Below are positions 4,345 through 35,318 of a stretch of 64,000 nt of DNA, piece after piece (positions within the stretch are counted from its first letter, which is position 1; each line of letters starts with the position of its first letter). The DNA lies in the NCBI RefSeq assembly GCF_000300005.1, contig NC_018691.1:4483001-4547000 (forward strand), given 5' to 3'. The stretch is from Alloalcanivorax dieselolei B5 (GTDB taxonomy: Bacteria; Pseudomonadota; Gammaproteobacteria; Pseudomonadales; Alcanivoracaceae). The position numbers were made by a program, and so were the translations under genes. Below the pieces are notes generated by a model. It was not told the origin of the DNA, ran no database searches, and worked only from the letters and a program-made list of their open reading frames with translations.

Positions 4345-5654
4345 AACGACGTCATTTTCTGCTGGCCCTGGCCGGCGGCGCGGCGCTGGCCTGGTGGCTC
4401 AAGCCCGGTGATCAGGGCCACCCCCATGCGCCCTACTTTCAGACGCTCAACGATACCCTGCGCGAAGGCCCGGGGCGGCCGCTGCTGTTGATTGACCAGG
4501 AACGGCTGGCCGCCAACTGCGCGCAGCTGGTGGCCGGACTACCGGCGGGCCGTCACTACCGCATCGTCGCCAAGTCCCTGCCCAGCGTGCCGCTGGTGCG
4601 CCAGGTGATGGCTCTGACCCACACCCGGCGGGTCATGGTCTTTCACCAGCCCTTCATCAATGCCATGGCGACGGCGGAGCCGGACTGCGATCTGCTGCTG
4701 GGCAAGCCAATGCCCGTGAGCGCCGCCGCGCTGTTTTACCAGGCGTTGCCCGCAAACGGCTTTGATCCGGACCGGCAACTGCAATGGCTGATCGACGGTA
4801 GCGAGCGCCTCCAACAGTACCTCGCCCTGGCCCGGCGCCTGAACCGGCGGCTGCTGATCAATGTGGAAATCGACGTGGGGCTGCATCGTGGCGGCCTCAC
4901 CGGAGCCGAACAACTGGACGAGTTGCTGGCGTTGATCCACGCCCATCCCGAACACCTGGCCTTCAGCGGCTTCATGGGTTACGACGCTCAGGTGGGCAAA
5001 CTGCCCGGCTGGATCGAGGACCGCGACACCAGTTTGCGCAAATCCCAGGACCGCTATCGTGCTTTCATCGAGCGTCTGTATCAGTTGGAACCGGCCTACC
5101 GGGAACAAGCGCTGACCTTCAACGGCGCCGGCAGCCCGACGCTGCGTCTGCATGGTGACGACACGCCCCTCAATGAACTGGCCGCCGGCTCCTGTCTGCT
5201 CAAGCCCACCGACTTCGACCTGGATACCCTGACGGATTTCCAGCCCGCCGCCTTCATCGCCGCTCCGGTTCTGAAACGGCTACCAGGGCTGCATCTGCCG
5301 GGACCGCTGCCCCTCGGCGAAATCTGGTCCTGGTGGGACCCGAACCGTCGCCAAACCTATTTCATCTACGGCGGCGCCTGGAAAGCCGAGCCCGCCTCCC
5401 CGCCAGGCATCCGCGCCAATCCGGTGTATGGCATCAGCACCAATCAGATGATGTTCAACGGCGCGCCCGCCACCGCCCTGCGCGAGGACGACCAGATCTT
5501 TTTCCGTCCTACCCAGAGCGAGTTCGTATTGCTGCAATTCGGTGACCTGGCGGTTATCGAACAAGGCCGGGTACACGCCTGGTGGCCGCCCTTCCCGCAA
5601 CAGCCGGAAACCGCCCCGGTTGCGGCAAGGACGGGCGCGGCAGACGCCACGTAA
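4341..5654 (+). CDS. Fold-III PLP enzyme, alanine-racemase-N / DSD1-like, with Tat-like leader
   Basis: The protein (437 residues) has an alanine racemase N-terminal-type TIM barrel followed by a D-serine-dehydratase-like C-terminal domain, as in D-threonine aldolase and D-serine dehydratase relatives. RIVAKSLPSVPLVRQV near residue 75 carries the expected PLP lysine. INVEIDVGLHRGG and FSGFMGYDAQVGK are barrel strands. The N-terminus KRRHFLLALAGGAALAWWL is a twin-arginine-like leader without a clear AxA cleavage site, so it may stay membrane-anchored. It overlaps the upstream FAD oxidase by 4 bases. Its last 101 bases are antisense to the downstream TPR gene. The reaction is unknown; aldolase, dehydratase or racemase activity are all possible. 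Confidence 0.8.
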   Translation: MKRRHFLLALAGGAALAWWLKPGDQGHPHAPYFQTLNDTLREGPGRPLLLIDQERLAANCAQLVAGLPAGRHYRIVAKSLPSVPLVRQVMALTHTRRVMVFHQPFINAMATAEPDCDLLLGKPMPVSAAALFYQALPANGFDPDRQLQWLIDGSERLQQYLALARRLNRRLLINVEIDVGLHRGGLTGAEQLDELLALIHAHPEHLAFSGFMGYDAQVGKLPGWIEDRDTSLRKSQDRYRAFIERLYQLEPAYREQALTFNGAGSPTLRLHGDDTPLNELAAGSCLLKPTDFDLDTLTDFQPAAFIAAPVLKRLPGLHLPGPLPLGEIWSWWDPNRRQTYFIYGGAWKAEPASPPGIRANPVYGISTNQMMFNGAPATALREDDQIFFRPTQSEFVLLQFGDLAVIEQGRVHAWWPPFPQQPETAPVAARTGAADAT

Positions 5655-6000
5655 GCGCGGCGGGCAGCAGCTGATCGGCCGGCATTTGATTGGCCTTCAT
5701 CTGGTCCGCATAGTCCATCAGCAACCGTCCTCTGAGCGGCGCCCCCAATTGGCACCAGGTCACGCCCAGATTGAACACGGTGTTGGCATCATCCCGGTTC
5801 CATACCAACGCGCGTTGGAAGCGGCACAGAGCGCGGGGCCAGTCCCCGCACCGTGCCCAATAGATGCCCTCGATACTGCACAGGGCCGCGTTTTCCGGGT
5901 AACGCTGCCGCAACCCTTGCAGCTCTTCCTCGGCCTGTTGCCAGACCCCGCCATCGATCAGGCCGCGCAGGCGCAGCGCGTGTTCGCAGCGCACGCTCAT
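5554..6000 (-). CDS. Small TPR-repeat protein downstream of creD
   Basis: The product is 148 residues. Residues about 5-90 form two to three tetratricopeptide-like helical pairs (AEEELQGLRQRYPENAAL, then WPRALCRFQRALVWNRDDA and VFNLGVTWCQLG), so it probably mediates protein contacts. No signal peptide is visible and it should be cytoplasmic. The ATG overlaps the creD stop in an ATGA, so the gene is the last cistron of the cre operon. The proline/arginine-rich tail after about residue 110 runs antisense to the end of the PLP-enzyme gene. That tail may be unstructured. Function unknown. Confidence 0.65.
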   Translation of the reverse strand: MSVRCEHALRLRGLIDGGVWQQAEEELQGLRQRYPENAALCSIEGIYWARCGDWPRALCRFQRALVWNRDDANTVFNLGVTWCQLGAPLRGRLLMDYADQMKANQMPADQLLPAALTWRLPRPSLPQPGRFPAVAGRAATRRVPGLVR

Positions 6001-7346
6001 GAGGACGCCCCTCCCCGTTGAGCCAGCCCATGCCAATCGACCCGGCGAGTCAGAATCATCACCGCCGCCAGCGCCGCGAACAGCAACAACGAGCCCATCA
6101 GCAACGCGTAGTCCTCGGCCAGCAGGATGGCGAACAACAACCCCAGCACGATCAACTGCGCCGAAGCGAATCCCCAACCCGCCAGTTTCGACTTCAACAC
6201 CGCGCTCAGGTACACCCCGATCAACCCAACGCAGGCCACCGCGCCCGATACATAGGCCCAGACAAAGTCCACGTGCTCGCCCAGTGCCACCAGCAGCAGG
6301 TAAAACATCGCCAGCGCCAGTCCCACCAGCAAATACTGCATCGGGTGCATGGCCACCCGGCGCATCACCTCGAACAGGAAGAAGGCGGCGAACGTCAGCC
6401 CGACGATCAGAAAGCTGTACTTCAAGGCCCGCTCACTGGAAAGCAGACCGGTGACCGGCTGCACCAGATCGACGCGCAAGAACTGGCTGTCATTCCTACA
6501 ACGCCCGTCGCTTTGCAGGCAGTCGATGGCGCTGGAAGCCGCCAGGCTGTTGGTCTGCCAGCGACCGATGAAACCGTCCTCGCTGACCTCCCGTTCCGCC
6601 GGCAGCATCAGTCCGGAGAAGCTCGGATGCGGCCAGTCACCACGCAGGGTCATGCGGGTTTCCTTGGCCATCGGCAACGCCGCCAGGCTGGTGCTGCCGT
6701 TCAGGTTCAAACGCAAACGGACCGTGAAGGGGCCGGACAGATCCTCCGGCAAAGGCGCCGCCACCACACCGCCGCCCTGCAGAACGGAGGGCATCGACGC
6801 TGGCTCCACCAACGGCAACGTACGCTCGCCGATACGCAACACCGGCCGCTCCACCAGGCCGCGCAGGTCGCCAACCCGGAACACCAGCAGCGGCGTGCCG
6901 GACGACACTATGGACGCATCCGCTTTGGCGGCCTGCAGCCATTCCGCCGGGAAATGCGCCTCCAGTTCAATCACGCTTTGATACACCGGTGTACCGTAAA
7001 TGCCACGGTACAGCATGCGGCTTTGCAGATTACCTTCGATGTCCAGGGTATTCGGCAGATAACGATCCAGGTCACGGCGCAGCTTGCGGCGCGGGCTCGC
7101 CGCTTCTTCCTCGGTGGCATCGCGGGTGCTCTCCGTCGCCCAGTACTCGCGCACGCGCGGCACCATCAGCAGCGGCCCGGACAACGTCTGTTCCTTGGCG
7201 AATTGGTTGCTGATTTCGTGGCTCACCAGCAGTGCGCGGTTCTGGCGCTCATCGATCTTTATCTGAATCATCAACAGCGGACCGACCAACACCAGCATCA
7301 GGCCGCAAATCATCAGGATTTTCTTCAGTGGACTGTAAGAAGCCAT
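5997..7346 (-). CDS. creD: Inner membrane protein CreD
   Basis: CreD is the classic target of the CreBC two-component system and is linked to envelope integrity and beta-lactam response. This 449-residue protein begins with one membrane helix (about 10-27). A large periplasmic domain follows, with the family words IKIDERQNRALLVSHEIS and LSGPLLMVPRVREYW. It ends with about five membrane helices (about 310-440). GGGGAG lies 7 bases before the ATG. It is separated from creC by 78 bases that contain a candidate CreB-type repeat, so it may have its own promoter as well as read-through. Confidence 0.9.
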   Translation of the reverse strand: MASYSPLKKILMICGLMLVLVGPLLMIQIKIDERQNRALLVSHEISNQFAKEQTLSGPLLMVPRVREYWATESTRDATEEEAASPRRKLRRDLDRYLPNTLDIEGNLQSRMLYRGIYGTPVYQSVIELEAHFPAEWLQAAKADASIVSSGTPLLVFRVGDLRGLVERPVLRIGERTLPLVEPASMPSVLQGGGVVAAPLPEDLSGPFTVRLRLNLNGSTSLAALPMAKETRMTLRGDWPHPSFSGLMLPAEREVSEDGFIGRWQTNSLAASSAIDCLQSDGRCRNDSQFLRVDLVQPVTGLLSSERALKYSFLIVGLTFAAFFLFEVMRRVAMHPMQYLLVGLALAMFYLLLVALGEHVDFVWAYVSGAVACVGLIGVYLSAVLKSKLAGWGFASAQLIVLGLLFAILLAEDYALLMGSLLLFAALAAVMILTRRVDWHGLAQRGGASS

Positions 7347-7424: not shown

Positions 7425-8840
7425 CTACCCCAGGCACAACCGCACCCGTACGCCCAGATCCAGGTTTTCCACCCGCAACCAGCCGCCATGCAGCTCACCG
7501 ATTTCCTCCACCATGGCCAGTCCGAGCCCGGAGCTTTTTTCCTCTCCCGGCGCCGGCAGAGAGTAAAATCGCTCGGTGACCCGGGCCAGCGCGTAGTCCG
7601 GAATACATGGCCCCCGGTTGCTGACGTCGATGCCCTGCTGGCCCCCTTCCCGCCAACCGTCGACGTCGATGGTGGAACCCGGTTCGGCGAACCGCAGGGC
7701 ATTGTCCAGCAGATTGAACAGGGCCAGACGGGTAGTATCCGGTTCCACCCGCAATACCGGTTCGCCACTCAACGCCACACTCAGCCGTTTCTCATCCAGC
7801 AGCACCTGGCGGCTGAGCTGCCACTCCGCCAGCAACGCCGCCAACCGCTGCGGTTCCCGGGGCGGCAGACTCTCCAGTTTTTCCAGCCGCGCCAGCGCCA
7901 GCATGCGATCCAGCAGATCGCTGAGCCGCTGGCTCTCGTGCACCACATTACCGGTCAGTCGGCTCAGGGCGGGCTCGCTCACCTCCTCGGCCAGAATCTC
8001 CCCGGCCCCCCGGATGGCCGCCAGCGGACTCTTCATTTCGTGGGTCAGCATGGTGATGTGATTTTCCAGCCGCGCCCGTTCCTCCAGACGGCGGCGCATG
8101 GCGGTGACGGCATCGGCCAGTTCGCGGATCTCATCATGAACGCGGAAGCGCGGCGGCGACGGCCTGCGCCCATCGGCCACCGCCAGGGCATAGCCGCGCA
8201 GCCGTCCGACCCGGTGGCTGATCCACCAGGCCAGACCGATGCCCAGCAACAGACAGGCGACCAGCGCCTGCCAGCCGTAGCGGATCAGGCGCTGTTCCGC
8301 CTGTTCGATGAACGGTTCGATGGCGGCCCCCGGCTTGCCCAGGGTCACCACGCCAATCAGCGTGCCCTGGTGGCGCACCGGCGCCGCCACGTACAACACC
8401 GAGGACGCCGGGTCATTGGGGTCGGTGCGGGTGGTGCGGGCGCCGTATTTGCCCTGCAAGGTCAGGTGCACATCGTTCCAGCGGGAAAAATCCTTGCCTT
8501 CGTTCTCGCCGCGCGAATCGAACAAAACGATGCCATCGGCACTGGTGATGTAGATGTGGGTATCGATGCGATTCTTGCTCAATCCCCAGATGTTGGCGCC
8601 CGGCAGCCGCTGGGCGTAACGCCTCAGTGCCGAGCGCAGTGCCGGGGTGACCACCAACTCGTCTCCCCGGGTGTCCATGGCGATCACCTCCGCCAGCAGA
8701 TTGGCGGCATCCACCAGGGTTTCCTCCGCCGACTGGCGCACCAGCGGCTGGGCCTCATCCAGCACCAGGTCCATGGTGAACCAGCTCACCAGCCCCATGA
8801 TCAGGAAGAAGATCAGCAGGAACTGACCGCTGAGTTTCAT
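7425..8840 (-). CDS. creC: Sensor histidine kinase CreC
   Basis: This membrane histidine kinase (471 residues) pairs with CreB. Helix 1 is at about 8-26. A periplasmic sensor region follows, with AEETLVDAANLLAEVIA typical of CreC. Helix 2 is at about 189-207, then a HAMP-like linker. The dimerisation box THEMKSPLAAIRGAGEIL has the phospho-accepting His267. The ATPase part shows NLLDNALRFAEPGS (N box) and SSGLGLAMV (G2 box). Its ATG overlaps the creB stop by 4 bases. All catalytic motifs are intact. Confidence 0.9.
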   Translation of the reverse strand: MKLSGQFLLIFFLIMGLVSWFTMDLVLDEAQPLVRQSAEETLVDAANLLAEVIAMDTRGDELVVTPALRSALRRYAQRLPGANIWGLSKNRIDTHIYITSADGIVLFDSRGENEGKDFSRWNDVHLTLQGKYGARTTRTDPNDPASSVLYVAAPVRHQGTLIGVVTLGKPGAAIEPFIEQAEQRLIRYGWQALVACLLLGIGLAWWISHRVGRLRGYALAVADGRRPSPPRFRVHDEIRELADAVTAMRRRLEERARLENHITMLTHEMKSPLAAIRGAGEILAEEVSEPALSRLTGNVVHESQRLSDLLDRMLALARLEKLESLPPREPQRLAALLAEWQLSRQVLLDEKRLSVALSGEPVLRVEPDTTRLALFNLLDNALRFAEPGSTIDVDGWREGGQQGIDVSNRGPCIPDYALARVTERFYSLPAPGEEKSSGLGLAMVEEIGELHGGWLRVENLDLGVRVRLCLG

Positions 8841-10833: not shown

Positions 10834-10872
10834 GAGCACGGGAATCAAGGAAAGCCCCGTACTTCCCGGCTC
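10834..10872. terminator. Imperfect stem-loop between convergent genes
   Basis: GAGCACGGGAA (10834-10844) can pair with TTCCCGGCTC (10863-10872) with one bulge. It lies exactly between the ends of the convergent reductase and amidohydrolase genes. There is no clear T-tract, so a terminator role is only suggested by position. Confidence 0.3.
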
Positions 10873-11785
10873 AGTCGTCGAACTGGTAAAGACGGGCGGG
10901 GTTGTCGGTCAGCACCTGTTTTCTTGTCGACAGGTCCGGCACCAGGCGCAGAAACTCATTGACCAGATCCCCATCGTCCGGGATTGGCCCTGGCAGTTGC
11001 ACGTGAGGCCAGTCGGTCCCGAACAGGCAACGATCCGCCCGCACCTCCAACAGCGTGGAGAAGAACGGGTCCACATCGTGAAACGGCGCGCGCTCCAGGG
11101 CGGTAATGCGGTTCGGTCCGGTGAGCTTCACCCAGGTGCGTCCGCCTTGCAGCAACTCCAGGAGAGCCCGGAAGCCGGGATGCTCGATTCCCCGGTGGGT
11201 GGGAATATGGCCCATGTGGTCGACCACGCTGTCGGTGGGCAGCCGGTCCAGGCGCTCGACCAGCCGTTCGAACCGCGACACGTCCACCAGGAACTGAACA
11301 TGCCATCCCAGCCCGGCGATTCGTCGGGACAGCAGTTCAACGTCCGCGAACGTCAGGCCGCCGGGAAACACCAGATTGACGCGCACGCCGCGCACCCCGG
11401 CCTCATGCATACGCTCAAGCTCGGCGTCGCTGATGCGGTTATCCACCACGGCGATGCCACGCCATTGGATATCATCGTCAGCGCGCCGGCGGGCCAGGGC
11501 GTCCAGCATGCGCCGGTTATCGGTGCCGTACACACTGGGCTGCACCAGCACCGCGCGCTGAAAACCCAGGGTGTGCAACAAGTCCCGATAGGCTTCCTCG
11601 GAAGCGTCCGGCGGTGTGTAACTGCGGTTGGGCTGATACGGGTACCGGCTTTGCGGGCCAAACAGATGGGCGTGGGTATCACACGCTCCCCGGGGCAAGG
11701 CGCTTGCGGGCTTGCTTGGCGCCGGGTGCGGTCCCGGGATCGTCGGCTCACTGATTCCGGACGTCGGTTTCTGATTCACGGTCAT
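10871..11785 (-). CDS. LigI-like amidohydrolase (2-pyrone-4,6-dicarboxylate lactonase family)
   Basis: This 304-residue TIM-barrel hydrolase belongs to the amidohydrolase-2 / LigI group, which opens lactones or cleaves carboxylated rings without needing the usual two metals. HxH is present in CDTHAHLFGP (near 36-45), the second histidine region in VVDHMGHIPTHRG and the catalytic Asp region in FGTDWPHVQLPGPIPDD. It is the last gene of a minus-strand set beginning with the TRAP transporter, 15 bases after the large permease, so its substrate is probably what the transporter imports. It is clearly paralogous to the C-terminal half of the fusion protein at 14896-16506 (shared RSYTPP and VQPSVYG blocks). 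Confidence 0.85.
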   Translation of the reverse strand: MTVNQKPTSGISEPTIPGPHPAPSKPASALPRGACDTHAHLFGPQSRYPYQPNRSYTPPDASEEAYRDLLHTLGFQRAVLVQPSVYGTDNRRMLDALARRRADDDIQWRGIAVVDNRISDAELERMHEAGVRGVRVNLVFPGGLTFADVELLSRRIAGLGWHVQFLVDVSRFERLVERLDRLPTDSVVDHMGHIPTHRGIEHPGFRALLELLQGGRTWVKLTGPNRITALERAPFHDVDPFFSTLLEVRADRCLFGTDWPHVQLPGPIPDDGDLVNEFLRLVPDLSTRKQVLTDNPARLYQFDD

Positions 11786-11800
11786 ACCATCTCTATTTTG

Positions 11801-13081
11801 CTAGCCCAACAGGCCCGGAAGCCAAAGCGTCACCGCCGGAACATAGGCGGTCAGTGCCACTACGCCAATGAGAACCAGGAAGAACGGCCAGAGATTGCGG
11901 GCCACTTTCTCGATACTCAAACCACTGATGGTGGAGGCGACGAACAGGGAGTACCCCAGCGGCGGGGTGATCATTCCCACGGCGAAATTGATCACCACCA
12001 TGGCGCCCAGTTGCACCGGATCCAGCCCCACCTGGGTGCCCACGGCGGTCAGAACCCCGCTGAGGATGACCATCGCGGACACGGTGTCCATGACCGCGCC
12101 GAGCACCAGCAACATGATGTTCAGCAACAGCAGGATCAGGAACGGGTTCGATGTAATGCTCAGCAGTACTTGCGTGACCTGCGAGGGAATCTGCTCACTG
12201 GCGATGATCCAGGCAAAGCCGTAGGCCACCACGATAATGAACATGATCACCGTGGTGGTACGCATCGACTTTATGAACAACGGGATCAGCGATTTCCATT
12301 GCAGATCCTTATAAATGAACAGGCCAATGACGAGGCTGTACAAGGCGCCCACCATGGCCGCCTCGGTGGGGGTAAACACGCTCCCGTAAATACCTCCGAG
12401 GATCACCACCGGCGCCAACAACGCCCATATCCCTTCACGTATCGCCGCCAGGATCTCCCGGACACCGGGGCGCTTCTCCCTGGTGATACCCAGGCGCCGG
12501 GCATAGAGATAACTGACAACGCAGAACCCCGCCGCCGCGATCAGACCGGGCAGGACACCCGCCAGGAACAATTTGGAGATCGACTCTTCCGCCAGCACCC
12601 CCCAGATGATCATGGGAATGGAGGGCGGGATCATTTGCCCCAGCGGCCCGATGGAAGTGGACAACGCCGCGCCGTAGCCCCGTGAATAGCCGCGTTTTTC
12701 CAGCTCATCGATCATCACCGACCCCACCGCGGCGGTGGTGGCCGGCGCGGATCCGGTAATGGCGCCGAAAAACGTACCGGCCGCCACGGTGGACATGGAA
12801 AGTCCGCCAGTTAAGTGGCCAAAACAGACCGAAGCCACCCTGACCAGACGCTTGGACAGCCCACCCGCGCTCATCAGGTCCCCCACCAGAATGAAACCGG
12901 GAATCGCCAGCAGGCTGGTGATGGTGCTCCCCGCGATCAGGCGCTGGGCCAGGATCATCGGATTGTAGTCGGCCATCCAGATACCCACGGCGGTGAGCAG
13001 GCCCAGGGTAAAGGCGATGGGAACCCCCAGCAGCAGCAGGACGAACAGCCCGACGATCAGAACAACGCCAATCTCACTCAT
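11801..13081 (-). CDS. TRAP transporter large permease (DctM family)
   Basis: This 426-residue integral membrane protein of the DctM type has about 12 hydrophobic helices and the characteristic GTFFGAITGSAPATTAAVGS and MIPPSIPMIIWGVL blocks. It forms the sodium-driven channel of a tripartite ATP-independent transporter. I used the ATG at 13081 (MSEIGVVLIVGLFVLLLLGV); a longer open frame to 13138 has no family support. It overlaps the end of the small permease by 8 bases, which indicates translational coupling. Confidence 0.92.
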   Translation of the reverse strand: MSEIGVVLIVGLFVLLLLGVPIAFTLGLLTAVGIWMADYNPMILAQRLIAGSTITSLLAIPGFILVGDLMSAGGLSKRLVRVASVCFGHLTGGLSMSTVAAGTFFGAITGSAPATTAAVGSVMIDELEKRGYSRGYGAALSTSIGPLGQMIPPSIPMIIWGVLAEESISKLFLAGVLPGLIAAAGFCVVSYLYARRLGITREKRPGVREILAAIREGIWALLAPVVILGGIYGSVFTPTEAAMVGALYSLVIGLFIYKDLQWKSLIPLFIKSMRTTTVIMFIIVVAYGFAWIIASEQIPSQVTQVLLSITSNPFLILLLLNIMLLVLGAVMDTVSAMVILSGVLTAVGTQVGLDPVQLGAMVVINFAVGMITPPLGYSLFVASTISGLSIEKVARNLWPFFLVLIGVVALTAYVPAVTLWLPGLLG

Positions 13082-13574
13082 CGACGGCGCCTCCGTGCTC
13101 ACCAAGCGACCCGGGGCGGAACAGCAACACCAAGGCATGGAAGACGATCAAGGCGCCACTCGCCGGCACCGCCGCACCTTGCAACCACAAGGGATAACGC
13201 AGCGCCGGTGACACCTGGTGCGCGGTAAAGGCGGTGAATTGCCAGCCGGCCCACAACATCAACCCGCCGAACAGCAGAATCAGTATCACGCTGCCCCGCT
13301 CAAGCAAGTGCCTGGGCAGGCCGGGTAAGGCGTCCACCACAATGGAGACGCGCACGTGTCCGAACTCCCGCGTCAGTACGCTGGCGAACAAAAACACTGT
13401 CCAACTGAACGCCAGCAGCGCGATCTCATCACTCCAGGACAAGGAAGAGTTCAGCACATAGCGGCAGAACACCCCGGCCAGCAGGGCCAGGGTCATGATC
13501 AACGCGCTGGCCGCGCCAAGCGCGGCCGTCACGGCGGCAAGGTATTTGCTGCCTGCTTCGAGATATCTATACAT
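13074..13574 (-). CDS. TRAP transporter small permease (DctQ family)
   Basis: This 166-residue protein has four hydrophobic helices and the DctQ word VFCRYVLNSSLSWSDEIALL. It forms the small membrane subunit that pairs with the DctM channel. It is the middle gene of the transporter set, 58 bases after the binding protein gene and overlapping the large permease by 8 bases. Confidence 0.9.
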   Translation of the reverse strand: MYRYLEAGSKYLAAVTAALGAASALIMTLALLAGVFCRYVLNSSLSWSDEIALLAFSWTVFLFASVLTREFGHVRVSIVVDALPGLPRHLLERGSVILILLFGGLMLWAGWQFTAFTAHQVSPALRYPLWLQGAAVPASGALIVFHALVLLFRPGSLGEHGGAVDE

Positions 13575-13632: not shown

Positions 13633-14637
13633 TTATTCCGTGACCAGTTCCATGGCGCGATCAACCAGGTCTTCGCCGATGCGTGGCCGATATTCTTCAT
13701 AGACCGGCCGCACCTCGTCGCGGAAAGCGCCGGTATCGGCAATCCCGGTAACCGCCATGCCCTTCGCCTTGATCTTCTCGATCAACGCCTGCTCGTTCTT
13801 CGCCACCTCGGCGCGTTGCCGCTCGATGGCTTTCCGCGCGGCGCTACGCACCGCCTCCTGCTGCTCGGACGACAGACGGGAGAACGCCTGTTTGGACATC
13901 AGCAGCGGCAAGGCGTTATAGGTGTGGTTGGTCAGCGAAAGATACTTCACCACGTCGGCGTACTTGTTGGCGTAAATCACCGCCAGCGGGATCTCGAGGC
14001 CGTCCACCGTGCCTTGCTGCACCGCCATGTAGGCGTCGCTCCAGGCCATGGGAACCGGATTGGCGCCCAGGGCCCGGAAGCTGGCGATAAACAGATCGCT
14101 CGGCTGCACGCGCAGCTTCACGCCCTGCAAATCGTCCGGTGCCTGCACCGGCCGCTTATTGTTGATGACATGGCGGAAGCCGGCTTCGGCAAAGCCCAGG
14201 CCGATCAGACCCTGTTTCTCCAGTCGGGCGAACAGTTCCTGCCCCACCTCGCCATCCAGTACCTCGTGGGCCTGGGCCCGATCCTTGAACAGAAACGGCA
14301 GGTCAAGGAGCTGGAAGCTCTTGTCCAGAGTGCCTAACTGGGTGCCGGTGATAACGCCGGCATCCAGCGTGCCGAATTGCATCCCTTGCAGCATGTCCGT
14401 GTCGTTACCCAACTGGTTGTTGGGGAAGAACTTGATCTCGAACTGTCCCGGCGCCGCGGCTTCCAGCTCTTCCTGGAAGTAGTGGGCGGCGATGGCATAG
14501 GGATCCACTTCGCTGTCGGCGGTGGTCCATCCCAGGCGGATCACGGTGGCGGCCTGAGCCACGCTCACCGCGGCCAGGGCCGCCGCCAAAATGGCAGCGG
14601 GCATCAACGTTTTGACGGATCGGAGTAAGGGCGTCAT
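13633..14637 (-). CDS. TRAP transporter periplasmic substrate-binding protein (DctP family)
   Basis: This 334-residue secreted binding protein has a signal peptide ending VSVAQA about 30 residues in. DctP-family blocks follow, including IKFFPNNQLGNDTDMLQGMQ, KLRVQPSDLFIASFRALGAN (with the conserved Arg that pairs with a carboxylate) and GTVDGLEIPLAVIYANKY. The substrate is therefore most likely an organic acid. The ATG at 14637 is preceded by AGGAAA; a GTG one codon earlier is an alternative. A promoter with an overlapping palindrome lies upstream, between this gene and the divergent GntR-fusion gene. Confidence 0.9.
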   Translation of the reverse strand: MTPLLRSVKTLMPAAILAAALAAVSVAQAATVIRLGWTTADSEVDPYAIAAHYFQEELEAAAPGQFEIKFFPNNQLGNDTDMLQGMQFGTLDAGVITGTQLGTLDKSFQLLDLPFLFKDRAQAHEVLDGEVGQELFARLEKQGLIGLGFAEAGFRHVINNKRPVQAPDDLQGVKLRVQPSDLFIASFRALGANPVPMAWSDAYMAVQQGTVDGLEIPLAVIYANKYADVVKYLSLTNHTYNALPLLMSKQAFSRLSSEQQEAVRSAARKAIERQRAEVAKNEQALIEKIKAKGMAVTGIADTGAFRDEVRPVYEEYRPRIGEDLVDRAMELVTE

Positions 14638-14704
14638 CACGGCTTTCCTGTTTGTTTTGATGGGGTTGTGGCATGGGACAGGCGGGGCGAAAAGCGCTCC
14701 ACCA

Positions 14705-14752
14705 AACTTGTCCTACAAGTTGATCATAATTTTACCAGTGCTGTAAAGTCAG
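14705..14752 (-). promoter_or_regulatory. Candidate promoter and GntR-type operator for the TRAP-hydrolase operon
   Basis: On the minus strand CTGACT (14752-14747) and TATGAT (14728-14723) are separated by 18 bases, a reasonable sigma-70 promoter. Immediately downstream, AACTTGT-CCT-ACAAGTT (14705-14721) is a perfect inverted repeat with 7-base arms. Its TTGT-N3-ACAA core has the architecture of FadR-subfamily GntR operators. Binding there would block initiation. The GntR fusion gene starting at 14896 is the obvious candidate repressor. This is inference from position and symmetry. Confidence 0.5.
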
Positions 14753-14895
14753 TCATCACCCCCCGGCCAATCCTCCCCGGTCCGAGTCATAACCGGTCCG
14801 TACGTGGAGCAGCGAGCCCCCGGAGAGGTACTATTACCGCCAGCGGCCCCGATGCCGTTTAGCCAACGCCGTTTGCACCGAACAGGATGAGCCCT

Positions 14896-16506
14896 ATGAA
14901 ACAAGCTGCCGCTGCAGGACGCAGCCAGCTTTCCGTGAAGATTTCCCGCCATCTGGAAGCGGAGATTTCCGCCGGCCGCCTCAAGCCCGGTGACCGCATC
15001 CCCAGTGAGTCCCAACTGACGGCGCGGTTCGGTGTCGGCCGCAACGTGGTCCGGGAGGCGATAGCGCGGCTCAAATCGGAAGGTCTGGTGGAGAGTCATC
15101 AGGGCCTGGGTGCCTTCGTATCCAGCAAGGCCCATCGCAACAGTTTTCGCATCGACCACGATGAACTGAGCCATCTGCCCAAACTCCGCCAACTCTATGA
15201 GTTGCGTCTCGATCTCGAAGTCTCCGCCGCCGGCATGGCTGCCCGCCGCCGTTCCCGCAGCCAGCTTGCGGCGATCCAGGCCGCCCTGTCCACGTTACGC
15301 GACGCCCTTGCCAACGGTCAGGGCATGGTCGAGAGCAGCCTGGCTTTCAAACGCGCCATTGCCGACGCCACCGGTAACGAATACTTCAAGAACTTCGTGC
15401 TGTTTCTGACCGCCCACATCTTTGAGGCCGCTTCTTTCGAACGGCGCATCGCCACTTCCGGAGCGCTGCGCGAAACCGTGCTGACCGAATACGAGTCGAT
15501 CCTCGAGGCGATCACCGTGGGCGACCCGGACCTCGCCCGCCGCGCCGCCTGGACCCAGATCATCAATTCCGCCGAGCGCAACGGGCTGCGTGGTCTGCAA
15601 GGCTGGGAGGTCACGCGCATGACCTCGCTTGGCGAGACCTACGCCCCACCCTGCGCGCCACCGGTATCGAGCTGCAGCGCCCCATCGTTACCGCTTCCCG
15701 ACGGTGCCTGCGATTGCCACTTCCACATCATCGGTGACGCCGCGGACCACCCTTTCACCCCGCATCGCTCCTATACGCCGCCGCCCGCGTCACTGGACGA
15801 CTACCGGAAAATGCAGGGCACGCTGGGTCTGAGCCGGGGGGTTATCGTGCAACCCAGCGTCTACGGTTATGACAACCGGGTGGCACTGGAAGCCTTGCGT
15901 CAAGGCGGCGGCCACTATCGCGGCGTGGTGGTGATCAGTGATCAGACCAGTGAACAGGAATTGCAGGAAATGGACGCCCTCGGGGTACGCGGGGTGCGCG
16001 TCAACCTGATCTACAAAAGCGGTGTCGAGGTCTCGGATGTGGCCAGTCTGGCGCGCAAGGTGGCGCCGTTGGGCTGGCATCTGCAATTGCTGATCGACAT
16101 CTCGGAATTCGCCGATCTCTACGACACCGTGGCCAACCTGCCGGTGGAGGTGGTGATCGATCACATGGGACACATGCCGGCCAGCATCGGTGTGAAGCAT
16201 CCGGGATTCCGCGACCTGCTGCGTCTGGCCCGGGACGGCAAGGCGTGGGTAAAGTTATCCGGCGCTTACCGCTTCACCAACCAGCCGGACACGCCCTACT
16301 CCGATGTCACGCCCTATGCCAAGGCGCTGATCAAAGCCAATCCCGATCAGATCCTGTGGGCCAGTGACTGGCCCCACGTGTGTATTTCCGTGCCGATGCC
16401 GGACGACACCACCCTGCTGGAAGAATTCTTCCAGTGGACCGGACACGACGAGACCATAATCCGCAAGATTCTGGTCGACAATCCCGCCCGCCTTTACGGT
16501 TTTTAA
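14896..16506 (+). CDS. GntR/FCD transcription regulator fused to an LigI-like amidohydrolase
   Basis: One uninterrupted 536-residue frame encodes two proteins' worth of domains. Residues about 10-75 are a GntR winged helix (SESQLTARFGVGRNVVREAI). Residues about 85-240 are an FCD effector domain. After a proline/serine-rich linker, residues about 265-536 are an amidohydrolase with HxH at 275/277, IDHMGHMP and ASDWPHV all intact. Family FCD domains hold a metal with three His; here the equivalent places read AFKRAIADATGN (Lys152), EYESILEAI (Tyr) and AAWTQI (Gln), so the site is lost. GGGAGG at 15605-15610 precedes an in-frame ATG at 15619, so the hydrolase might also be made alone. I chose the ATG at 14896 (AGGA 8 bases upstream); an ATG at 14887 is an alternative. 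It is divergent from the TRAP operon. Confidence 0.85.
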   Translation: MKQAAAAGRSQLSVKISRHLEAEISAGRLKPGDRIPSESQLTARFGVGRNVVREAIARLKSEGLVESHQGLGAFVSSKAHRNSFRIDHDELSHLPKLRQLYELRLDLEVSAAGMAARRRSRSQLAAIQAALSTLRDALANGQGMVESSLAFKRAIADATGNEYFKNFVLFLTAHIFEAASFERRIATSGALRETVLTEYESILEAITVGDPDLARRAAWTQIINSAERNGLRGLQGWEVTRMTSLGETYAPPCAPPVSSCSAPSLPLPDGACDCHFHIIGDAADHPFTPHRSYTPPPASLDDYRKMQGTLGLSRGVIVQPSVYGYDNRVALEALRQGGGHYRGVVVISDQTSEQELQEMDALGVRGVRVNLIYKSGVEVSDVASLARKVAPLGWHLQLLIDISEFADLYDTVANLPVEVVIDHMGHMPASIGVKHPGFRDLLRLARDGKAWVKLSGAYRFTNQPDTPYSDVTPYAKALIKANPDQILWASDWPHVCISVPMPDDTTLLEEFFQWTGHDETIIRKILVDNPARLYGF

Positions 16507-16564: not shown

Positions 16565-16656
16565 CTACGAAGCCGCTGTAGGAGCTTGCCTGCAAGCGAA
16601 TCTTGAGACCCGGAGGCCCATTCGCTTGCAGGCAAGCTCCTACAGCGGCTTCGTAG
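16565..16656. repeat. REPIN-like element 1 (two inverted REPs)
   Basis: Two perfect 37-base inverted arms (16565-16601 and 16620-16656) enclose an 18-base loop. Each arm carries a GTAG head followed by an inner hairpin, GCTTGC-CT-GCAAGC, the layout of Pseudomonas-type REP sequences, and the paired arrangement is that of a REPIN. It sits between the converging ends of the GntR-fusion gene and the amidase gene. Confidence 0.85.
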
Positions 16657-35221: not shown

Positions 35222-35318
35222 ACTACAAGGCTACTGTAGGAGCTTGCCCTGCAAGCGAATGGCTCTCTGCGTTGTAAGAATTCGCTTGCAGGGCAAGCTC
35301 CTACAGCGGCCTTGTAGT
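35222..35318. repeat. REPIN-like element 2
   Basis: Inverted arms of 39 bases (35222-35260 and 35280-35318) differ at only two positions and enclose a 19-base loop. Each arm has a GTAG head and the inner hairpin GCTTGC-CCT-GCAAGC. It is closely related to REPIN 1 but has one more C in the hairpin loop. It lies in the 339-base gap between the fecR-type gene and its receptor gene, which also holds a Fur-like site, and so separates the two transcription units. Confidence 0.85.

Follow-up and report, generated by a model that had tools for sequence, protein, structure and literature searches.

A single open frame encoding 536 amino acids in the genome of Alloalcanivorax dieselolei B5 joins a GntR/FCD regulator to a lactonase-type amidohydrolase resembling LigI (Table 1). 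Both the fused architecture and its regulatory linkage are well supported, and we infer a coupling of catalysis to DNA binding. With moderate confidence, we read the product as a single-chain trigger enzyme in which a FadR-type repressor and a lactonase-type enzyme together control substrate uptake. Positions refer to the window, the whole 64,000-nucleotide stretch of DNA that was analysed, unless another locus (L numbers) is named.

Table 1 Features of the fused gene and its surroundings, with dehydrogenase homologues at other fused loci.
Feature	Position	Strand	Basis or remark
HYD2, second free lactonase-type amidohydrolase	10871..11785	-	PF04909; 45% identity with the fused one
dctM, TRAP large membrane subunit	11801..13138	-	PF06808; true start possibly further in
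dctQ, TRAP small membrane subunit	13074..13574	-	PF04290
dctP, TRAP solute-binding protein	13633..14640	-	PF03480, E 1.4e-87
Palindrome AACTTGT-CCT-ACAAGTT, candidate operator	14705..14721	.	Recurrence in fused loci
Promoter-like site facing dctP, CTGACT-18-TATGAT, just upstream of palindrome	14723..14752	-	Motif search
Fused CDS: GntR DNA-binding, FCD, junction and LigI-like lactonase-type domain	14896..16506	+	Pfam; frame kept in relatives
GntR winged-helix domain, residues 14-75	14935..15120	+	PF00392, E 3.5e-21
FCD domain, residues 99-219	15190..15552	+	PF07729, E 8.4e-20
Junction NGLRGLQGWEVTRM, residues 229-242, core GLQGWE..RM	15580..15621	+	Alignment of 20 fused proteins
Internal SD-like GGGAGG, 8-nt spacer and ATG (Met242); potential second start	15605..15621	+	Sequence
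Amidohydro_2 domain, residues 272-536	15709..16503	+	Pfam, E 7.9e-53
YdiJ-like or D-2-hydroxyglutarate-dehydrogenase-like gene, L021	6263-7807
YdiJ-like or D-2-hydroxyglutarate-dehydrogenase-like gene, L029	9715-12894
YdiJ-like or D-2-hydroxyglutarate-dehydrogenase-like gene, L035	12510-15461
YdiJ-like or D-2-hydroxyglutarate-dehydrogenase-like gene, L038	12502-15405
YdiJ-like or D-2-hydroxyglutarate-dehydrogenase-like gene, L039	12490-15369

Both regulator domains score above their curated Pfam cut-offs (GntR, 75.1 versus 27 bits; FCD, 71.9 versus 24.3 bits), which places the protein by domain content in the FadR (FCD) subfamily of the GntR superfamily. The match to Amidohydro_2 (PF04909; 180.5 versus 26.4 bits) covers positions 1-289 of the 289-position profile, and the enzyme domain is therefore complete. 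The open frame and these domains bear out the initial annotation, which had described a GntR/FCD regulator and a LigI-like hydrolase in one frame. An alternative in-frame ATG lies 9 nt 5' of the listed start, at 14887, but 14896 is the likelier start because AGGA at 14884-14887 is spaced 8 nt from it. An AlphaFold model of the fused protein (20-row alignment) has a mean pLDDT of 80.1 and a pTM of 0.64, with pLDDT below 50 at residues 236-249; a fixed contact between the two halves is therefore not predicted. Directly 3' of the gene lies a perfect 37-nt inverted repeat (16565-16601 / 16620-16656), which we take to be REP-like and whose core, TGTAGGAGC, occurs in further inverted pairs at 35235/35297 and 61358/61425.

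The best matches of the enzyme half, in sequence and in fold, are LigI and related 2-pyrone-4,6-dicarboxylate hydrolases (2ffi and 4d8l; fold match to 4d8l, E 3.3e-17) and Atu3138 (4mup), presumably a galactaro delta-lactone isomerase. Residues H275, H277, H395, H423, H426 and D491 are identical in 20 of 20 fused proteins, and D491 aligns with Asp248 of LigI, the residue changed in 4di8/4dia. From its complete domain and active-site motifs, this half is predicted to be a LigI-like lactonase of the Amidohydro_2 family.

The regulator half has a changed FCD pocket. The three metal-binding histidines that are common, though not universal, in the FadR subfamily correspond to positions 152, 199 and 221, as judged from alignment with DhdR and from the spacing given for TM0439 and related proteins in excerpts of the literature; in the window protein these read K/Y/Q, with 221 just past the Pfam match. 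None of the 24 fused rows has the complete triad, compared with 31 of 35 unfused rows, the other four of which keep two histidines. Fused rows instead carry KHQ (9), KYQ (7), HLH (3), HYH (2), QHH (1), HFH (1) or HYA (1), and as 7 of the 24 retain two of the three histidines, the loss is partial in the alphaproteobacterial branch. According to excerpts of PMC7674646, FadR senses its ligand without a metal triad and DgoR has a partly different set. Triad loss thus marks a changed pocket rather than a dead one, and is no proof that sensing has moved to the enzyme.

To assess the conservation of the fusion, we investigated its distribution. A stop-free fused frame was found in 4 of 13 genomes of the genus, and these are also the 4 found among 46 genomes of the family; the protein is 98% identical in A. 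balearicus and A. xenomutans, and a frame with 52% identity is present on plasmid pTM3 of Tistrella mobilis. In a scan of a genome collection, of which the best 80 of 244 relatives were kept, 20 of the 80 loci matched the fused query from end to end (residues 1, 8 or 10 to 536). Nineteen of these are stop-free. The twentieth, L041 from Pseudomonas, looks split at the junction (about 8725-8756), where a run of N identifies the apparent frame break as an assembly gap. The 20 loci come from Alloalcanivorax/Alcanivorax, Stutzerimonas, Pseudomonas and Alcaligenaceae (Gamma- and Betaproteobacteria), from Lutibaculum, Stappia, Shimia, Sulfitobacter and Tistrella (Alphaproteobacteria among them), and from two metagenome-assembled genomes (MAGs) labelled Desulfobacterales and Denitrovibrio, other phyla, although these labels could reflect binning error. 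The fused frame recurs in independent assemblies at identities as low as about 49%. Because one of the two peptide patterns used in the scan was the junction itself, the scan is biased towards the fused family and leaves others uncountable. A further divergent member, L172, was found by a search of the Paenalcaligenes family.

Within larger taxa the fusion is sporadic. Counts of genomes with the fused frame, all lower bounds with at most 6 to 10 candidates scored per genome and centre genomes included, were at least 3 of 398 in the genus Pseudomonas, at least 2 of 394 in the Sulfitobacter family (where 17 had a regulator match at 1e-50), at least 3 of 268 in the Paenalcaligenes family (where 5 had one at 1e-60) and at least 1 of 370 in the class (where 6 had one at 1e-40, and the fused frame is that of the window's own genome). 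A search for independent fusions in 397 genomes of the phylum, 72 of which had a match, gave a full-length match only in the window's own genome, with mostly 3 candidates per genome. Six fetched stretches with hydrolase open frames of 445-667 amino acids contained no GntR/FCD match at E 1e-6, so those frames look like read-through, and no such match was found in the free-lactonase stretch L171. Only 2 of 60 free-lactonase loci had a GntR/FCD-like open reading frame at E 1e-8, and neither adjoins the lactonase.

In a tree of regulator domains, built by a quick method and with several long branches among the unfused rows, all 24 fused rows (including two identical pairs) lie on one side of a branch with SH-aLRT 99, opposite 35 unfused rows, giving the regulator half one origin. 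Fused rows need two changes in the hydrolase-domain tree, because a free lactonase of L037 falls among them, and the starred branches force only one; this tree does not establish a single origin for the enzyme half. The sporadic spread of the fusion suggests horizontal transfer. Among close relatives, purifying selection acts on both halves: in comparisons with L022, L023, L026 and L028 each domain gives a dN/dS of 0.01-0.09 (some more distant pairs are saturated), and the junction one of 0.03-0.21, with few changes.

Two loci carry the same kinds of gene unfused. In L123 (genome G225, minus strand, about 5141-6717), GntR and lactonase genes lie behind dctPQM in a TRAP operon and share an ATGA overlap of regulator stop and lactonase start; its DctM is 78% identical to that of the window, its lactonase 72% identical to HYD2, its nearer relative, and its regulator 36% identical to the fused one. 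On plasmid pCB3060_1 of Rhizobium sp. CB3060 (L152, 5001-10850), a GntR gene, a gap of about 1.1 kb, a lactonase gene, dctP, dctQ and dctM follow one another on one strand, with products 25-38% identical to those of the window. In an informal comparison, Met242 of the fused protein, 33 residues before HxH, falls close to the point at which several free lactonases can start. The free regulators listed end no more than about 35 residues from position 219. The fusion therefore seems to have joined two whole genes end to end.

To probe the regulatory linkage, we analysed the genomic context of the fusion. TRAP genes lie near it in the window's kin (L022, L026 and L028), Stutzerimonas, both Alcaligenaceae loci, Tistrella, Lutibaculum, Stappia, the Denitrovibrio MAG, Shimia, Sulfitobacter and L172. 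The fusion is divergent from dctPQM and a second lactonase gene in the window's kin, Stutzerimonas, Paenalcaligenes and L172, and TRAP genes and a lactonase gene face it in the Denitrovibrio MAG. In alphaproteobacterial loci L021, L035, L036, L038 and L039, dctPQM lies downstream of the fusion in the same orientation, and no second lactonase was found in the stretch searched. At seven Pseudomonas loci (L027, L029-L033 and L041) a lactonase gene lies upstream of the fusion on the same strand and no TRAP gene was found near the fusion; an MFS gene separates the two in the five loci inspected (L027, L029, L030, L031 and L033; Pfam on two). An MFS gene also adjoins the fusion in L135 and L136, and no transporter was found in L034, where the contig stops 0.3 kb after the fused gene. 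The closest solved relatives of the TRAP binding protein (4nq8 and 4p47) bear generic names, so no ligand can be named.

Homologues of FAD-linked D-2-hydroxyacid dehydrogenases were found near the fusion in 5 of the 16 loci compared; the stretches of L022 (window kin), L023 (Stutzerimonas) and L025 (Paenalcaligenes) had none. That of L029 exceeds the YdiJ cut-off (1565.7 versus 1350 bits), three others fall below it (914.7-1077.5 bits), and that of L021 matches D-2-hydroxyglutarate dehydrogenase chains (6lpn, E 2.7e-92), ranked after an unnamed oxidoreductase. The P. protegens dehydrogenase gene, which is convergent with the fusion, may be an unrelated neighbour. These genes give only a hint that the fusion's product is a D-2-hydroxy acid.

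A FadR-type palindrome, TTGTNNNACAA, occurs on the promoter side of the transporter operon in 18 of 20 fused loci, compared with 0.15 expected from first-order simulations. In the remaining two, L035 and L037, a version with a single mismatch lies upstream of the fusion, and in L172 one lies between the fusion and dctP. The other 357,900 bases contained four matches to TTGTNNNACAA; two of these fall within the fused gene, in L024 and in L025. In Pseudomonas the palindrome is absent from the gap between the MFS gene and the fusion (0 of 7) and sits upstream of the first lactonase gene instead. As the 4.93-Mb genome contains CTTGTNNNACAAG at 4 places and a reversed-pattern control at 10, the weight of the palindrome rests on its position and recurrence. 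The promoter-like site facing dctP is one of 2 overlapping matches in the stretch (mean of 0.1 in shuffles), and the palindrome lies just downstream of its -10-like box, which fits repression.

Taken as a trigger enzyme, a single chain of about 58 kDa would combine a FadR-type repressor with a lactonase-type enzyme. Its GntR domain would bind the candidate palindrome as a dimer and block the operon of transporter and second lactonase, as predicted from the position of the palindrome relative to the -10-like box. The imported compound, or the ring-opened hydroxy acid made from it, would then release the repressor. Because the FCD domain has lost its full metal triad and the lactonase motifs remain intact, it is probable that the enzyme domain shares in sensing, and on the strength of those motifs it would both bind the inducer and consume it by hydrolysis, so that uptake would stop once the substrate is gone. 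A possible substrate is a lactone of a 2-hydroxy acid, given the D-2-hydroxyacid dehydrogenase homologues near some fusions. It had been proposed from the window alone that the enzyme controls the uptake of its own substrate; the linkage stands, as the conserved fusion is often found beside uptake genes with a FadR-type palindrome, and the coupling itself is the part we infer. More tentatively, these proteins may be self-limiting one-component switches of single origin and horizontal spread, in which the repressor's sensor pocket decayed after fusion to a live lactonase, and active-site occupancy and turnover came to set DNA binding and hence uptake of the same substrate.

Two alternatives to a trigger enzyme centre on the junction, where the initial annotation had noted GGGAGG (15605-15610), an 8-nt spacer, an ATG (15619-15621) and a next-frame TGA (15620-15622) overlapping that ATG, all of which are present. 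The resulting ATGA had suggested one indel in an ATGA-coupled pair as the plain alternative, and the unfused pair of L123 shows such an arrangement. As a sequencing or assembly error, or as a fresh event, this has a negligible probability. The fused frame is conserved in independent assemblies, both halves are under purifying selection, and the core GLQGWE..RM is identical in 20 of 20 aligned fused proteins (the window protein and 19 loci), is also present in L172 and is among the most conserved parts of the protein in that alignment. No indel near 15600 separates the genes in close relatives, the lone break being the N-filled gap of L041, and an artefact or recent indel is thereby ruled out. 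As deep history, however, a coupled pair is plausible, given L123 and the position of Met242. The same ATG could instead give a second product, with one mRNA yielding both the fusion and a free lactonase. Met242 and an SD-like run before it are kept in all 20 fused genes, none of the other five conserved Met codons has a mean SD energy as strong as that of Met242 (-7.7 kcal/mol), and several free lactonases can start near this position relative to HxH. We nonetheless consider two products unlikely: the run is mostly dictated by the protein, as the motif GWE forces TGGGAR; codons 228-250 showed no excess synonymous conservation (mean -0.002, reached by 174 of 308 windows; 13 divergent sequences); and in the close kin L022 and L028 the weaker GGGAAG replaces GGGAGG.

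Other alternatives concern what the enzyme half does. The fusion could be architectural only, with the FCD domain sensing alone, the lactonase carried as a passenger at equal amounts and catalysis having no effect on DNA binding. Consistent with this, a second free lactonase lies near the fusion in the window's kin, Stutzerimonas, Paenalcaligenes, the Pseudomonas loci, the Denitrovibrio MAG and L172, the model of the junction has low confidence, and FadR, in the excerpts of PMC7674646, shows that an FCD domain without the triad can sense. We regard a passenger as a serious but lesser chance, as the junction is so strongly conserved, the complete triad is missing in every fused row but kept in most unfused ones, and no unfused regulator was seen close to the fused clade (E falls from 1e-107 or better to 1e-64 or worse, with few candidates per genome). 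Alternatively, the lactonase domain could be a catalytically dead ligand sensor, for which MocR regulators, with GntR joined to an enzyme-like sensory domain (excerpts of PMC5320631), offer a precedent and with which the frequent presence of a separate free lactonase would agree. The invariant histidines and D491, with its LigI counterpart, and the five alphaproteobacterial loci without a second lactonase in the stretch searched make this quite improbable.

If catalysis and DNA binding are coupled in a single-chain trigger enzyme, the fusion would be a compact metabolite switch in which the sensor uses up its own signal. It would also offer a natural test of the way adjacent genes give rise to trigger enzymes, and could serve as a scaffold for lactone biosensors.

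Several known systems resemble parts of this architecture. The nearest solved regulator is DhdR, a GntR/FCD repressor of D-2-hydroxyglutarate catabolism (9jpj, E 3.8e-30; listed as a pyruvate dehydrogenase complex repressor but titled DhdR), and a link to D-2-hydroxyacids is shared by DhdR and those fused loci with dehydrogenase homologues. Its footprinted operator, given as GTTATCAGATAAC in excerpts of PMC8651671, resembles the GTTGTCAGACAAC read at four alphaproteobacterial fused loci (Tistrella, Stappia, Shimia and Sulfitobacter). Unlike the fusion, DhdR is a free regulator with histidine at all three triad positions and no enzyme domain. LigI shares the HxH, DHxG and DWPH motifs with the fused enzyme half but has R in place of H426, and LigI and 4mup-type proteins are free enzymes with 25-31% identity to it. 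The best NCBIfam model, 4-sulfomuconolactone hydrolase (NF042924), scores 205.8 bits against a cut-off of 500, so the enzyme half is not a member of that family.

Regulator-enzyme fusions are known in kind, as in MocR, but we found no description in the open-access PMC literature of an intact lactonase-type enzyme fused to a GntR/FCD regulator, in agreement with the initial annotation, which knew of none. MocR regulators carry an aminotransferase-like part that is often described as a ligand sensor without catalytic activity. MocR, GabR and EnuR join a GntR DNA-binding domain to an enzyme-like sensing domain, as described in excerpts of PMC5320631. Their C-terminal domain is aminotransferase-like, whereas the fusion keeps FCD and an Amidohydro_2 domain with intact motifs, and it is therefore not a MocR protein. 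PutA is a trigger enzyme that combines catalysis and DNA binding in one chain; the fusion may follow the same one-chain plan by analogy, although the folds differ. Finally, the unfused clusters of L123 and L152 place the same kinds of gene (GntR, lactonase and TRAP) side by side but as separate proteins, and the ATGA-coupled pair of L123, in a related operon, offers a before-and-after comparison for the fusion.
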